34,615 nt of DNA, from assembly GCA_028280565.1 (NCBI GenBank), contig JANQLQ010000162.1, positions 1 through 34,615 of the forward strand, in the 5' to 3' direction. The notes beneath the pieces are model-generated. The model was given only the letters and a program-made list of their open reading frames with translations, was not told where the DNA came from and did no database searches. Position numbers and translations under genes: made by a program. This stretch comes from Fulvivirga sp. GTDB lineage: Bacteria; Bacteroidota; Bacteroidia; Cytophagales; Cyclobacteriaceae. Positions 361 through 6,100 of the stretch are shown in pieces; position 1 is the first letter of the stretch, and each line of letters starts with the position of its first letter.

Positions 361-2664
361 TTAGTCTGCCATAACCCGTTCCCGCCTTCGTTCAGTGGCT
401 AGCCGATTGATGTAAAAGCTACCTGCCACTAAGAGGATCATAAGGACCATGATCACTGTCCACACCCATGTATAATCGTAGGTCGTAAAGCTTAGTGGTG
501 AAGCATCTCCATACAAGACGAAGGCACCCCAAAAATAAGGATGAGAGGTGTGGGCATCGGAATCTTGCAAGTACTTTAGTTTAGCTTGCCTTAAAGCACG
601 ATCCTTGGGTAAGCCATTGGCAAGGTTCCTGGTAAAATAGTTTACGATCTTGGAAGTGGCATAGTCATTGGTTTTCCAGGCACTCATAGCTATGGCATGA
701 CAGCCTGCCATTTTGAAAGCTTTACCCACAGAGGCCATACCCACTCCCTGTTCTAAAGCTGTATGCTCGAGTCTCGAAGCGCTTAGCAGTACGATTTCAG
801 CATTCATCCCCAGGGTACTCAACGATGGGAAAGACAAAAACCCTTGGGAAGTATAGCATCCAGCGGGTTCAAAATCCGCAAAAATCAAACCTGATTGATC
901 CAAACGTTCTTCATCTACATAGGTATGCATGCTTAAATGTAAAATGCTGACATCAATACGCTCTAGAAAGTTGTTTTTCGTAGCAGAATCGCCAAGCAAT
1001 ATGCTACCACCAAATAACGCCCTGGCCTTGGTCACCTCCTCTTGGTTATAAATTAGTTCACCCCATTCACTTACTTCCTGTAATGAATCCGCTGATTGGG
1101 TCATTATTCCCGGCATTATTACGCCCGTGTAACTTGGGGCCACACCAAGATAGCGTTGTCTTGAAGAATTTTCATTGATATTGTGAGACACTCGGTACCG
1201 GGCGGAATGATCATAGCTAATGGGATGATCAAGGATCATAAAAGGCCAAGTGGAATACAGCTCGTTTTGCGGCATGCTCCCTAAGAGGAGGCCAAAAGGG
1301 AGGTGATCCAGGAAACCATCGGGAAAAATTATCAACCTCTCACCCGGGGACAGGATCTCTTGAACAGGATGCACCAGGTGAACATGAAGTTGATGCAATT
1401 GGGCAGCTAGCAGGCTATCGCTACCCCTATATGCTCTTTTTAGCATATCCAATACTTCGCTCGACCTTACAAGGAGGTCATTGACGCAATCAACCCTAGT
1501 GAGTAGGGCCTTTGATTTGTCAGCGGCCAAAAGATAATAAGCCGTGTGCCCTTGGTAATACGAAAAGAAGTTATCCTCATCTTCTAATGTGGCCCTGTAA
1601 GAGGCCAAAGACAAGGGTACCTGCTGGTATACTCGCTTGTGCGCCGGACCCAGTGTTTGTACTACGGTAGCTATGGAATCATATTGATCTTCGATGTTTC
1701 GGATCCTAGTAACATAAAAACCCATAGAGTCCTCCTGGCCTGTCTCTCGGAGCTTTTTTGAAAACAAAGAATATTGTGTTTCAATAGAATCCAGCATTTG
1801 GGAGAGAAAAGGCAGTGTTTGAGAAATCTCTCCCAAGGGGTAGGATCGCAATGTTTCCATCGCCCTAAGCGCTTTCCCCTGTTCTATGAACCAGAACGCG
1901 TATTCGCTGACCACAGGTGAAGCCAATACCTCCATTCCTCCCAAACAGGTGTCTAAAGCCTCTCCTACTACACCTTGGTGGCCATCAACAAAATAAGGTT
2001 TAGCTTTCGATAGGCTGCTTATTTTCATCGCCTTAGCAAACGCCTTCAAACATAAACGGTAGGTTTTCAAACTGGCCTGTAGATATTGGACCTGGTTTGA
2101 ACTTTCAAAATAGTCTTTTAAAATGCGGGCTTTAATTGCCGAAACCCGGATAAATTCGGGCAGGAACACGATATTACGAAGACCCGGGTTATCCGTAGGG
2201 TAACTCCAGTTTTGAAGATCGGAAAGCGCATAGAGGTTTTTTTGAACTACTTCCAATGCTTTTTCATAGTCGCCCTGCCGTACGTAAGCAAGCGCTATTT
2301 GGTTGATGACCTCGTAAGCCTGTTGATTATGAAGCTCTTCCTGTTGCGCACGCAGTTGAGCCAAAGTAAAATCATCCTGTGTTTCTTTAAAATTGCCCTG
2401 TTTAAAAAACTGTTGCACTTGGAGCGCCAAGGCCTGCCGGCTTTTTTCATTACTTTCTACTTCAGCGGCTGTAGCCTTACGGGGTCGTCGTGAGTTACCT
2501 GCCCCAGGCTGCTGAGGAGGCTTGAGCACTACAGTTATGTTCGCGTGGAATGATGTGCCCGGGGGTGCCTTGCCACCGGCGGCAGAACGCACTCCCAAGC
2601 ACTGCCCAGTGTCGAGAACGGGGAATGATGCCAGGAGCAGGAGGATACTTTGCCAAGAGGTCAT
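361..2664 (-). CDS. Membrane-anchored TPR-CHAT protein with altered catalytic cysteine
   Basis: A 767-residue caspase-like CHAT-domain protein. The frame is open up to 2880, but I choose the ATG at 2664: GGAG lies five bases upstream and a hydrophobic signal peptide follows at once (SILLLLASFPVLDTG). A linker leads to TPR-like helices from about residue 117 (YEVINQIALAYVRQGDYEKALEVV). The C-terminal part has CHAT hallmarks: IIFPDGFLDHLPFG, LHLSMHT with the putative catalytic His580, AMSAWKTND and HPYFWGAFVLYGD. Where most family members have LSAC, this one has LSAS, with Ser630 encoded by TCG at 775-777. A transmembrane helix (VWTVIMVLMILLVAGSFYI) and a basic tail end the protein, so the CHAT and TPR parts are probably periplasmic. 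Family assignment is firm. Loss of protease activity is inference. Confidence 0.85.
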   Translation of the reverse strand: MTSWQSILLLLASFPVLDTGQCLGVRSAAGGKAPPGTSFHANITVVLKPPQQPGAGNSRRPRKATAAEVESNEKSRQALALQVQQFFKQGNFKETQDDFTLAQLRAQQEELHNQQAYEVINQIALAYVRQGDYEKALEVVQKNLYALSDLQNWSYPTDNPGLRNIVFLPEFIRVSAIKARILKDYFESSNQVQYLQASLKTYRLCLKAFAKAMKISSLSKAKPYFVDGHQGVVGEALDTCLGGMEVLASPVVSEYAFWFIEQGKALRAMETLRSYPLGEISQTLPFLSQMLDSIETQYSLFSKKLRETGQEDSMGFYVTRIRNIEDQYDSIATVVQTLGPAHKRVYQQVPLSLASYRATLEDEDNFFSYYQGHTAYYLLAADKSKALLTRVDCVNDLLVRSSEVLDMLKRAYRGSDSLLAAQLHQLHVHLVHPVQEILSPGERLIIFPDGFLDHLPFGLLLGSMPQNELYSTWPFMILDHPISYDHSARYRVSHNINENSSRQRYLGVAPSYTGVIMPGIMTQSADSLQEVSEWGELIYNQEEVTKARALFGGSILLGDSATKNNFLERIDVSILHLSMHTYVDEERLDQSGLIFADFEPAGCYTSQGFLSFPSLSTLGMNAEIVLLSASRLEHTALEQGVGMASVGKAFKMAGCHAIAMSAWKTNDYATSKIVNYFTRNLANGLPKDRALRQAKLKYLQDSDAHTSHPYFWGAFVLYGDASPLSFTTYDYTWVWTVIMVLMILLVAGSFYINRLATERRRERVMAD

Positions 2665-2938
2665 TTTCTCCAATATACAGAAAATTAGGCTCTTAAGTAA
2701 TACATGTGTGCTTGATCGGTCTCTCCAGGCGGTCGCCAAGGTGAAATTTCCAAGGTCGAGAGAATGGATGGAGGACGACAGGACCTTTAAAATTGCTAAA
2801 GCCGTAAGGAGGAGAACCTTAACAAAATTGCCAAGTACCACACAATAAGCGAACCAAAAAAACATCCCACCGATTTTCAATTTACAAATTTAGGCTTTCA
2901 CCTATTAATAGTCCTGTTGGTTTTTTAACTTCGGACCA

Positions 2939-4042
2939 ATGGATCAGTTTGTAGTATCAGCGCGGAAGTACCGGCCCACGGGCTTTGAAGAGGTAGTAGG
3001 ACAGGAACATATCACTACTACCTTAAAAAATGCGATTGACAACAACCAACTCGCCCAAGCATTGCTTTTTTGTGGGCCCCGGGGAGTAGGTAAAACCACT
3101 TGTGCCCGCATCTTGGCCCGGATGATCAACCAGTTTGACGAAAAGAGTGAAGGGAATACCCTGAATATATTTGAGTTGGATGCCGCATCGAACAATTCCG
3201 TGGATGACATACGTAACCTGATCGACCAAGTCAGGTATCCTCCTCAATATGGTAAGTACAAAGTGTACATCATCGATGAGGTTCATATGCTTTCTAACGC
3301 GGCTTTTAACGCATTCCTTAAAACGCTGGAGGAACCCCCACCTTACGCCATTTTCATACTGGCCACCACCGAAAAACATAAGGTGATCCCAACGATCTTA
3401 TCCCGATGCCAGATCTTCGATTTTAACAGGATACAGGTTTCTGATATTTCGGGTCACTTATCAAGGATTGCAGAAAAAGAAGGAATTACCGCGGAAGAAG
3501 AAGCCCTGCACCTCATTGCCCAGAAAGCCGATGGCGCCCTGCGGGATGCATTATCGATCTTCGACCTGATCGTAACATTCTCCTCGGGTAAAAACGTCAC
3601 CTACCAGTCTACCATCGATAACCTGCACATACTCGATTACGAGTATTACTTTAAAGTGGTAGATCATTTGTTGGCTGAAGATCTGTCCAGCACCCTTTTA
3701 CTTTTTGATGAGATCCTAAAACTTGGGTTTGACGGGCACAATTTTATTGTTGGGCTCAGCGAGCATTTACGAAACCTGCTAGTATGTAAGGATAATGCTA
3801 CGATCCAGTTAATGGAGGTCCCGGATAATACCAAACAAAAATATGTGGATCAGGCTAACAGGGCTTCCATGTCATTTTTATTGTCGTCGTTGAACTTGGC
3901 TAACCAATGCGACTTAAGTTATAAGTCCAGTAAAAACCAGCGGCTGCACGTAGAGCTGGCCCTGATGAAGTTAGCCCACATCAACGCTGCTATTAGCTTA
4001 GCCACCTTAGAGGAGAGTGGCCTAAAAAAAAAAGTGATGTAA
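2939..4042 (+). CDS. dnaX: DNA polymerase III gamma/tau: zero-frame (gamma-like) product
   Basis: Clamp-loader ATPase subunit. In the zero frame it is 367 residues ending at TAA 4040-4042. Visible motifs: Walker A GPRGVGKT (46-53), Walker B IIDEVH (111-116), sensor LATTE (141-145) and the SRC arginine-finger motif (LSRC, 154-157), followed by the lid and collar domains. The cysteine-rich zinc module found in E. coli DnaX between Walker A and the DAASNNSVDDIR segment is absent; only a short linker (INQFDEKSEGNT) is there. The reading frame ends directly after a run of ten A residues, and the -1 frame continues for another 213 codons. The short product therefore corresponds to gamma and the frameshifted one to tau. 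The start is the only good ATG before a highly conserved N-terminus (FVVSARKYRP). Confidence 0.95.
   Translation: MDQFVVSARKYRPTGFEEVVGQEHITTTLKNAIDNNQLAQALLFCGPRGVGKTTCARILARMINQFDEKSEGNTLNIFELDAASNNSVDDIRNLIDQVRYPPQYGKYKVYIIDEVHMLSNAAFNAFLKTLEEPPPYAIFILATTEKHKVIPTILSRCQIFDFNRIQVSDISGHLSRIAEKEGITAEEEALHLIAQKADGALRDALSIFDLIVTFSSGKNVTYQSTIDNLHILDYEYYFKVVDHLLAEDLSSTLLLFDEILKLGFDGHNFIVGLSEHLRNLLVCKDNATIQLMEVPDNTKQKYVDQANRASMSFLLSSLNLANQCDLSYKSSKNQRLHVELALMKLAHINAAISLATLEESGLKKKVM
4011..4036 (+). other. Likely dnaX programmed -1 frameshift or transcriptional slippage site
   Basis: Ten consecutive A residues (4024-4033) sit in the zero frame as CTA AAA AAA AAA GTG ATG TAA. An SD-like AGGAGAG lies at 4011-4017, six bases before the run, which resembles the stimulatory SD element upstream of the E. 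coli dnaX slippery site. A slip of -1, or one extra A added by RNA polymerase, moves reading into a frame open to 4674. I see no strong hairpin just downstream; the region is C-rich. Poly-A slippage in dnaX is established for E. coli (ribosomal) and Thermus (transcriptional). An assembly error in the homopolymer is the main alternative. Confidence 0.75.
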
Positions 4043-4674
4043 CCCCCCAGCCCGACCCACCAAAACCCGCCGAAACCCCACCTGTTGCAGTTTCATCGCC
4101 TAGCACCAATACCAAAACAATCGTAGAGGCCCAGGAAGAATCTACACCGGCACGCCAAACGCCAAGCCCAGTTAAAATTCCCCCAAAGCCAACTAAACTA
4201 AGGTCTACCACAAAAATACCTACCAACTTGGATCAAGTGTTGGAAGACCTGCCCAGCCCGGGAGAAGATGTGGAAGAAGGACCTTCGATTGAAGAATCCT
4301 ACGGTAATGACCCCTTTACTTTCGAGGATCTCAAAGAACACTGGGGGCAATTTGCAGAGCTAAAAAAGAAAGAGGGTAAAGACTCGGAATACGCCGTATT
4401 AAAACAGGAGATAGAGCTAGTAGAAGAAGTAAAAATACTTTTAAAGCTCACCAACGCGGTAAAGTTGAATATTCTCGATAGGTTCCGGCCCGATCTTATG
4501 ACTTATTTAAAATCGCGGTTAAATAATGGCCAAGTCGAGTTAATCACCCAACTTATAGAGGAAGAGTCATCGAGGGTACCCTACACCAACAAGGAGAAAT
4601 TTGAATACCTCGCGGAAAAGAAACCCATTCTCCATGATCTTAAGAATCGACTGGGACTTGACCCCGATTTTTAA
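4033..4674 (+). CDS. dnaX: Tau-specific C-terminal part of DnaX, read in the -1 frame
   Basis: If translation slips by -1 at the A run, reading continues AGT GAT GTA ACC and stays open for 213 codons, giving a 578-residue tau-type protein. The first ~65 residues are a Pro/Thr/Ser/Lys-rich linker (QPDPPKPAETPPV; PSPVKIPPKPTK). An acidic stretch follows (LEDLPSPGEDVEEGPSIEES), then a helical domain starting near FEDLKEHWGQFAELKKKEGK and ending KKPILHDLKNRLGLDPDF. The final domain resembles the C-terminal domain of Bacteroidota DnaX proteins, which supports real translation rather than chance openness. No convincing independent start exists: the first ATG in this frame is at 4498, and the first alternative start (TTG, 4228) falls inside the linker. 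Confidence 0.8.
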   Translation, partial: SDVTPQPDPPKPAETPPVAVSSPSTNTKTIVEAQEESTPARQTPSPVKIPPKPTKLRSTTKIPTNLDQVLEDLPSPGEDVEEGPSIEESYGNDPFTFEDLKEHWGQFAELKKKEGKDSEYAVLKQEIELVEEVKILLKLTNAVKLNILDRFRPDLMTYLKSRLNNGQVELITQLIEEESSRVPYTNKEKFEYLAEKKPILHDLKNRLGLDPDF

Positions 4675-5017: not shown

Positions 5018-5902
5018 TCAGTCTTCATAATTCTTAAATTTATAAACGATCCCCATATTGAGCGCTTGGCTAAATTGAAGTTCATCGACTTGGTCAAAAT
5101 CATAAATTGCGATCAACCCCAAGCTTACGTCAAGGAAGCTATTCACCTTGGCAGCCAGGATCAAGTCCAGGCGATGATCTACCTTGTCCAGCTCGAGTTC
5201 TTCATAATTGGAAAAAAGGATGTATTTCCACTTCAAATTAAGATTTTCAGCGATGTCTTTGTTGAAATCCGCCAACAGCTGGAAGGCAAGCCATTCTGCG
5301 CGCAAGTTATCCCCAGGGTCCACACCGTAGGCACCCAGGTCAGAAAGCCTGTCATTATTGACGAACGTTAAACGAGGAGAAAAAGGGCCAATTCTTACTT
5401 TGAAGAAATCCGCCGGGTTATACTCAAATCCCCACGACGAGGTAACAAATGCAGGCGCAAATAGGCTTGAAATGAGGCTGTCGTAGGTTTCCCCGTTGCT
5501 CCTTACTTGGTCATAGGCAAAACCGTCGGCAAACTGTGTGAGCAAAGACAGTGAGGTAAAAAAAATCCATTTCGAAGAAAGCTCTCTCCCGTACTTCGTG
5601 TCTAAAAATACCCTGTCCAACGATTTTCGGCTGCTCTGCCCTTCGTTACTCAAAACACCGTAGGCCAGGTCTATCTCGTTATCCCAGCTATGTATGTCCC
5701 TTGCATAATTAGCTTTATAGTTCAAAAAAGCGTTCAGGCCTATCGAGTTTACACCTCCACCGGTCCAATTATCTGAAAACGAGGCCTGGTTAAAGCTTAT
5801 TCCTGCGCGAAAATCCTTTTTCCAATAGGTAGTATCCTCTTGTCCCTGCAGGGTAAATACACACGAACATACTAAGGCAAACAACAACGTGATTTTTTTC
5901 AT
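5018..5902 (-). CDS. DUF3078 family outer-membrane protein
   Basis: A 294-residue exported protein starting MKKITLLFALVCSCVFTLQG, a typical signal peptide. The mature part begins QEDTTYWKKDFRAGISFNQASFSDNWTGGG, characteristic of DUF3078 proteins of Bacteroidota. It continues with alternating aromatic beta-strands (LNAFLNYKANYARD; WSWGFEYNPADFFKVRIGP-like segments) and ends with a strand-like MGIVYKFKNYED, consistent with an outer-membrane beta-barrel. The frame is open up to 5965, but that part lies across a consensus -7 element (5930-5937), so the ATG at 5902 is the better start. Molecular function is unknown. Fold and location are inferred from the pattern and the family. Confidence 0.85.
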   Translation of the reverse strand: MKKITLLFALVCSCVFTLQGQEDTTYWKKDFRAGISFNQASFSDNWTGGGVNSIGLNAFLNYKANYARDIHSWDNEIDLAYGVLSNEGQSSRKSLDRVFLDTKYGRELSSKWIFFTSLSLLTQFADGFAYDQVRSNGETYDSLISSLFAPAFVTSSWGFEYNPADFFKVRIGPFSPRLTFVNNDRLSDLGAYGVDPGDNLRAEWLAFQLLADFNKDIAENLNLKWKYILFSNYEELELDKVDHRLDLILAAKVNSFLDVSLGLIAIYDFDQVDELQFSQALNMGIVYKFKNYED

Positions 5903-5929
5903 GGTAATGTCAGTAAATTGAGGTTTATG

Positions 5930-5937
5930 CAAATATA
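5930..5937 (-). promoter_or_regulatory. Bacteroidota -7 promoter element for the DUF3078 gene
   Basis: The minus strand reads TATATTTG, an exact match to TAnnTTTG, about 27 bases upstream of the chosen start at 5902. No TTTG is found at the ideal -33 spacing, so only half the promoter is supported. It argues against the longer start at 5965. Confidence 0.5.
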
Positions 5938-6100
5938 ATGGGTCAAAGCAGGATACCGTATTCATATTCGGTGGATCGCAACAAATACTCGGTAATTGTA
6001 AAAATATAATTTTTTACAGGAAAAAAAGGAAGGAAGAAATGAAGTAGAATTACTACCCCATCATCCCATAATATCGAGGAGTTAACTCAAAAAGACGAAG

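Follow-up and report, generated by a model that had tools for sequence, protein, structure and literature searches.

In Escherichia coli, the dnaX gene gives two products by -1 ribosomal frameshifting at an A-rich shift site that combines the heptamer A_AAA_AAG with an upstream purine-rich Shine-Dalgarno (SD) motif and a downstream stem-loop, and gamma is the shifted product (PMC5009743, PMC3711429). In Thermus thermophilus, two products are likewise made from an A run with both non-tau frames closed; the run there is A9, tau lies in the zero frame and gamma comes from transcriptional slippage (Larsen et al. 2000, as described in PMC1088944 and PMC5009743). A further arrangement was described in 2013 for 17 two-ORF dnaX genes from 12 genera, in which the ORFs are adjacent and the shift is -1 at the DNA level; the run counts 10 A's in nine of the 17 genes, and RNA polymerase slippage was proposed (Antonov et al. 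2013, PMC3711429). Outside dnaX, the slippage site of a Roseiflexus IS element has an RNA stem-loop directly 5' of it; this site is T5C5 and loses one base (PMC5009743). According to a 2016 review, tau seems to derive from frameshifting in fewer bacteria.

Here, we analysed a stretch of 34,615 nucleotides from Fulvivirga sp. (hereafter the window), whose dnaX, as a putative slippage gene, is a further member of the published kind. As in the genes of Antonov et al., the zero frame stops directly past a long A run and the tau tail follows in the -1 frame. The locus shares with Thermus a run of at least nine A's with both non-tau frames closed nearby; it is the reverse of Thermus as regards the encoded product, templated tau being found instead in 84 of the 260 relatives described below. 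With E. coli it shares the gene, the two putative products, the A-rich site and an upstream purine motif, whereas the layout differs. The stem-loop adjacent to the site recalls the Roseiflexus element, the difference being that A10 presumably gains A's.

The dnaX locus and its two reading frames

The features of the locus are collected in Table 1. In Pfam, the zero-frame ORF carries the DNA_pol3_delta2/AAA, DNAX_ATPase_lid and DNA_pol3_gamma3 domains, and in NCBIfam it matches dnaX_nterm (386.8 bits) and positions 1-364 of the 614 of NF011531 (660.5 bits). The -1-frame tail matches positions 404-612 of the same model (80.1 bits, E 1.6e-22). Gamma and the tail match consecutive parts of one DnaX model, each piece alone falling below its cut-off of 685 bits. 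At the run, the zero-frame codons read CTA AAA AAA AAA GTG ATG TAA; beyond it, the zero frame closes at two codons and the +1 frame at one, while the -1 frame runs on through 213 open codons. The only in-frame heptamers of the run are A_AAA_AAA, and A_AAA_AAG is absent from the zero frame there. The earlier note had described a zero frame closing just after A10 and an open -1 frame encoding a linker and a tau-like C-terminal part, and the translations and model matches bear out this description.

Table 1. Features of the dnaX locus, in coordinates of the window
Feature	Position	Strand	Basis
CHAT-domain gene	361-2880	-	
Zero-frame ORF: gamma, clamp-loader ATPase, 367 aa, ends ...GLKKKVM*	2939-4042	+	translation and domain matches
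Predicted 5' RNA stem-loop GCCACCTTAGAGGAGAGTGGC; 3' end 2 nt short of the run; includes AGGAGAG	4001-4021	+	MFE, cross-locus hairpin signal, arm-swap test
AGGAGAG motif	4011-4017	+	sequence
A10 run, putative slippage site	4024-4033	+	sequence; conserved across relatives
+1 frame AAG TGA; stop at 4035-4037 would end the products of A9/A12 transcripts	4032-4037	+	sequence
-1-frame continuation: linker and tau C-terminal domain, ends ...RLGLDPDF*; stop TAA at 4672-4674	4033-4674	+	translation, NF011531 match, codon-position identities, fold prediction
Zero-frame stop TAA, end of gamma	4040-4042	+	sequence, translation
Predicted folded domain of the tail	4222-4671	+	alignment of 44 tails
TTG-started ORF within the tail	4228-4674	+	
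DUF3078 gene	5018-5965	-	

Both neighbouring genes lie on the strand opposite to dnaX; the adjacent CHAT-domain gene is divergent to it and encodes a protein of 839 aa. The genome of the organism (9.05 Mb in 337 contigs) contains one full-length dnaX match and two weak partial ones. Among the matches listed, the closest named record is that of Fulvivirga sp. M361, with 89% identity; the site in this record (L042) is the same as that in the same-genus genome G012 (L006).

Judging by the identities at codon positions 1, 2 and 3 among 14 loci of the genus (0.59, 0.70 and 0.36), the tail evolves there as coding sequence in the -1 frame. A folded domain was predicted from the alignment of 44 tails with a mean pLDDT of 81.6 and a pTM of 0.57. 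A Foldseek search of this model against solved structures returned nothing at E <= 0.001, and a Pfam search of the tail gave no significant family (best E 0.41). The predicted fold is weakly like the N-terminal domain of DnaA and DciA, with E above 0.1.

Conservation of the run and drift of the tau register

Relatives were surveyed at 304 loci (L001 and L004-L306) spanning the genus, family, order, class and phylum, a collection that was not sampled at random. Searches of the genus, the family and the order each contributed the loci of up to 30 best matches, and 80 named records were the best matches of one scan. The family additions were 19 long-frame rows and one short-frame row among the matches listed, the class loci outside the family comprised 31 of 34 short-frame rows and 49 long-frame rows, and 40 loci of the order and 20 of the phylum were picked by hand. 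Removal of 13 duplicates, three loci that were too short and four whose match ended early left 284 distinct loci; 24 of these, with a longest run below eight A's, were kept in the denominator. A frame was considered open when it extended at least 100 codons past the run, or at least 60 up to the end of the locus.

A run of eight to twelve A's occupies the junction in 260 of the 284 loci: 14/14 in the genus, 110/119 in the family or among named records, 51/56 in the order, 71/78 in the class and 14/17 in the phylum. Ten A's are by far the commonest length (214 loci), followed by nine (26), eleven (18), and eight and twelve (one each), and among the loci listed the run falls between residues 354 and 416. 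Within the genus, 14 of 15 genomes, our own included, have a near-full dnaX match; 13 of these 14 carry A10 with tau in the -1 frame, and the single-contig genome G008 differs, with A11 and a zero-frame tau. The run is thus conserved in relatives, a point that the earlier note had wished to see checked.

Exactly one frame is open past the run in all 260 loci, and which one it is varies. The -1 frame encodes tau in 171 loci and the zero frame in 84, and the +1 frame does so in five that each rest on a single assembly; since the sample was built by hand, these shares are not population rates, and since the loci are related, the counts are not independent. Mapped onto a FastTree phylogeny built from the gamma parts, the register changed at least 36 times, a parsimony minimum obtained without a shuffle control. 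In two pairs of close relatives with similar flanks, L038 (A9) and L036 (A10), and L011 (A11) and L010 (A10), a single A flips the tau register. In the class sample, the open frame was shorter than 470 codons in 38 of 137 genomes with a match, among the rows listed.

The earlier note had counted eleven A's in the DNA, which would fuse the frames, against slippage. Relatives with eleven A's and a single frame do exist (L011, L022). Because they keep the run, and because both non-tau frames close within two codons, they do not refute the slippage reading; gamma would be the slipped product there.

Closure of the non-tau frames

Both frames other than that of tau are closed within five codons of the run in 202 of the 260 loci, against 72 +/- 6 in a null in which the codons past the run were resampled synonymously; elsewhere in the same genes, the corresponding share is 10%. 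When tau is in the -1 frame, the third frame is closed within seven codons in 156 of 171 loci (null 114 +/- 5). When tau is in the zero frame, the +1 frame is closed within seven codons in 67 of 84 loci (null 41 +/- 4) and within three codons in only 35 (null 27 +/- 3). In 15 of the 260 loci, one off-frame remains open beyond 10 codons.

A stem-loop on the 5' side of the run

In the window, the sequence ending just before the run can form a stem-loop (30-mer MFE -9.9, z -1.63; 45-mer z -1.05), and structure is enriched at this position across the surveyed loci. Over the 260 loci, the mean 30-mer MFE was -6.08 in windows abutting the run and -3.68 six bases upstream; it ranged from -2.1 to -4.1 elsewhere upstream and from -2.5 to -3.4 downstream. 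Since G+C at the run is somewhat higher (0.52 versus about 0.45), shuffled controls matter: windows abutting the run had a shuffle z of -0.88, compared with +0.10 at offset 6, between +0.05 and +0.10 at offsets 6-12 and between -0.41 and +0.06 further up.

Exchanging stem arms between loci weakened the predicted structure. In 229 non-redundant loci, natural arms gave -6.60 against -5.22 for swapped arms (sd 0.13, 200 permutations), compared with -4.66 against -4.43 (sd 0.12) in a control window; these shifts amount to about 10 and about 2 standard deviations, respectively, with the reservation that natural arms also share the base make-up of their lineage. The effect holds separately for loci with tau in the -1 frame (n=147) and in the zero frame (n=78). 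The hairpin is not universal: the 30-mer MFE is at or below -6 in 124 of the 260 loci, compared with 41 and 55 when two other offsets serve as controls, and the mean percentile of the abutting stem among controls from its own gene is only 0.65. From these folding predictions, the hairpin looks like an added helper of slippage.

Very strong 5' hairpins accompany short or interrupted runs at L050 (A7, 36-mer -14.4) and L216 (A8, 30-mer -15.5), as if the hairpin compensated for the short run; these two cases are anecdotal.

The AGGAGAG motif and the E. coli-like sites

The AGGAGAG motif upstream of the run, which the earlier note had likened to the E. coli signal, is present as described; the parallel with E. 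coli did not hold up, as the motif is not conserved. An SD-like 5-mer precedes the run in only 21 of the 171 loci with tau in the -1 frame and in eight of the 84 with a zero-frame tau; the background in gene bodies is 4%. The slight enrichment accompanies G-rich codons upstream of the run, at positions -8 and -5. Bacteroidia ribosomes are reported as failing to recognise SD sequences (PMC9976891). The poor conservation and the reported behaviour of these ribosomes speak against an SD element as the main stimulator, and AGGAGAG is better read as part of the 5' hairpin.

Downstream, the 56 nt past the run of the window contain no stem-loop of the E. coli type (MFE -1.8, z +0.60), in agreement with the earlier note, and a hairpin as in E. 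coli was rejected on this basis. Across the loci with at least eight A's, there is some downstream structure, weaker than at the E. coli-like sites described next, with a mean z of -0.40 for tau in the -1 frame and of -0.73 for tau in the zero frame.

A different layout was encountered among the 24 short-run loci, 10 of which, most of them from one lineage, were chosen because their -1 stop lies one codon past A6/A7 as in E. coli (L098, L105, L106, L113-L115, L118, L121, L212 and L214). Nine have A7, eight of these being named Pontibacter, and L214 (genome G321) resembles E. coli dnaX in having A_AAA_AAG and a downstream hairpin. In these 10 loci a 5' hairpin is missing (mean 30-mer z +0.18), whereas a strong hairpin lies downstream of the run (mean z -2.44, MFE -20.8). 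Sites of the E. coli type and A10 sites are found in the same order and form a natural contrast of the two putative mechanisms.

Other A10 runs in the genome

The 9.05 Mb genome yielded 16 matches to A10, corresponding to 15 distinct runs. Only at dnaX does a long upstream frame end at the run with a second long frame extending beyond it. Five other runs lie inside long ORFs (L310, L312, L315, L318 and L319), which encode S41 peptidase, subtilase, LiaF-like, HATPase and TPR-like proteins; at L319, both other frames are closed within three codons, as in dnaX.

Polymerase slippage and its alternatives

The production of gamma and tau by slippage on A10, as the earlier note proposed, is supported by the conserved run, the coding tau frame and the closure of two frames. 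The note had left the choice between ribosome and RNA polymerase undecided; comparative grounds, not experiment, now favour the polymerase. We consider programmed transcriptional slippage at the dnaX A10 run, assisted by the 5' hairpin, to be the probable mechanism (roughly 0.85). In copying the ten template T's (T10), RNA polymerase would produce A runs that differ in length; an RNA-DNA hybrid consisting of rA:dT pairs only would make realignment possible, and the nascent-RNA hairpin lying just behind the hybrid would favour it. Faithful A10 transcripts, and also those with A9, A12 or A13, would be translated into gamma, since a stop lies within two codons in either non-tau frame, while A11 (or A8) transcripts would give tau, of 578 residues if one A is added. 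We infer that the RNA is heterogeneous and that the hairpin acts on the polymerase; slippage would presumably set the ratio of the two products, and both proteins would be expected in the clamp loader.

Ribosomal -1 frameshifting on an A_AAA_AAA heptamer within the run, the mirror image of E. coli dnaX, would produce the same tau in the window, where such heptamers are in frame. Its direction fits 171 of the 260 loci, SD-like 5-mers are mildly enriched there, and E. coli-like A6/A7 sites with downstream hairpins occur in the same order (Pontibacter, L214). A review also places the reversed dnaX, with tau made by frameshifting, under ribosomal frameshifting and mentions a candidate with E. coli-like signals in Chlorobium phaeobacteroides. 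A -1 shift by the ribosome, however, could make no tau in the five loci of +1 register, and it has need neither of third-frame stops nor of a run of about 10 A's, a ribosomal heptamer requiring seven; the polymerase hybrid of 9-10 bp is close to the length of the run (PMC5009743). The downstream hairpin is moreover absent from the window and weak in the loci with tau in the -1 frame, few of which have an SD-like motif. Stem-loops 5' of the site stimulate polymerase slippage elsewhere (PMC5009743), and differing shift directions among genes of one function have been taken as a sign of polymerase slippage (Antonov et al., PMC3711429), a sign that the sequences of the surveyed loci display. That -1 registers far outnumber +1 ones (171 to 5) fits either a bias of the polymerase toward adding one A or a ribosomal share. 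Because the register is free, the run long and the third frame closed, RNA polymerase slippage is preferred, and a purely ribosomal mechanism appears unlikely.

The remaining explanations are less likely still. Phase variation at the DNA level, with cells differing in run length and hence in product, would agree with the differences between close species, A10 and A11 within the genus (L010, L011) and A10 versus A9 in another close pair (L036, L038). Every cell would be expected to need tau; both off-frames are kept closed, and a run of 9-12 A's persists in 71 of 78 class-level loci, neither of which a switch requires, and this explanation is very improbable. Homopolymers are prone to sequencing error and the window comes from a draft assembly, so that a gene truly in one frame, or a pseudogene that has lost tau, might be imagined; the same arrangement recurs in 13 of the 14 matching genomes of the genus, among them the single-contig G004, G005 and G014, which speaks against such an error, and a tail that evolves as coding sequence together with the -1 layout in 171 of 260 loci leaves next to no room for either. 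Translation of the tail from an internal start has hardly more to recommend it: the tail does contain a TTG-started ORF, and an ATG or GTG occurs in the first 60 codons past the run in 89 of the 171 loci with tau in the -1 frame, yet ATG is found there in only 37, a scarcity on which this possibility was rejected, and both parts are fused in one frame in 84 of 260 relatives.

Implications for dnaX in the Bacteroidota

Extended to the phylum, the slippage reading becomes more tentative, though we still lean toward it: Bacteroidota dnaX may be broadly frame-indifferent, the run of 10 A's, matched to the polymerase hybrid, and the 5' nascent-RNA hairpin forming a programmed, terminator-like slippage element and tau drifting among the 0, -1 and +1 frames, with Pontibacter and L214 showing an E. 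coli-like, ribosomal layout whose hairpin lies downstream of a short run. Transcripts of all registers would then be made, so that the tau frame could drift freely. The main text of Antonov et al., the portion consulted, contains no 5' hairpin, three-register drift or class-wide spread in Bacteroidota (PMC3711429). A literature search on dnaX slippage, frameshifting and realignment likewise found neither class-wide spread nor a 5' hairpin in titles and the beginnings of abstracts. Within the literature searched, the breadth, the drift of the register and the 5' hairpin would be new to a specialist.

The surveyed loci provide comparative evidence on a question that is partly open in the literature for the reversed dnaX, namely whether polymerase or ribosome is responsible. 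A single A more or less in the run can decide whether dnaX reads as one frame or as two. Varying in run length, hairpin strength and register, the loci also offer a natural series of slippage elements within a gene of core replication. Within one order, moreover, sites that appear to act through the polymerase can be set against sites that appear to act through the ribosome, in the service of the same task.
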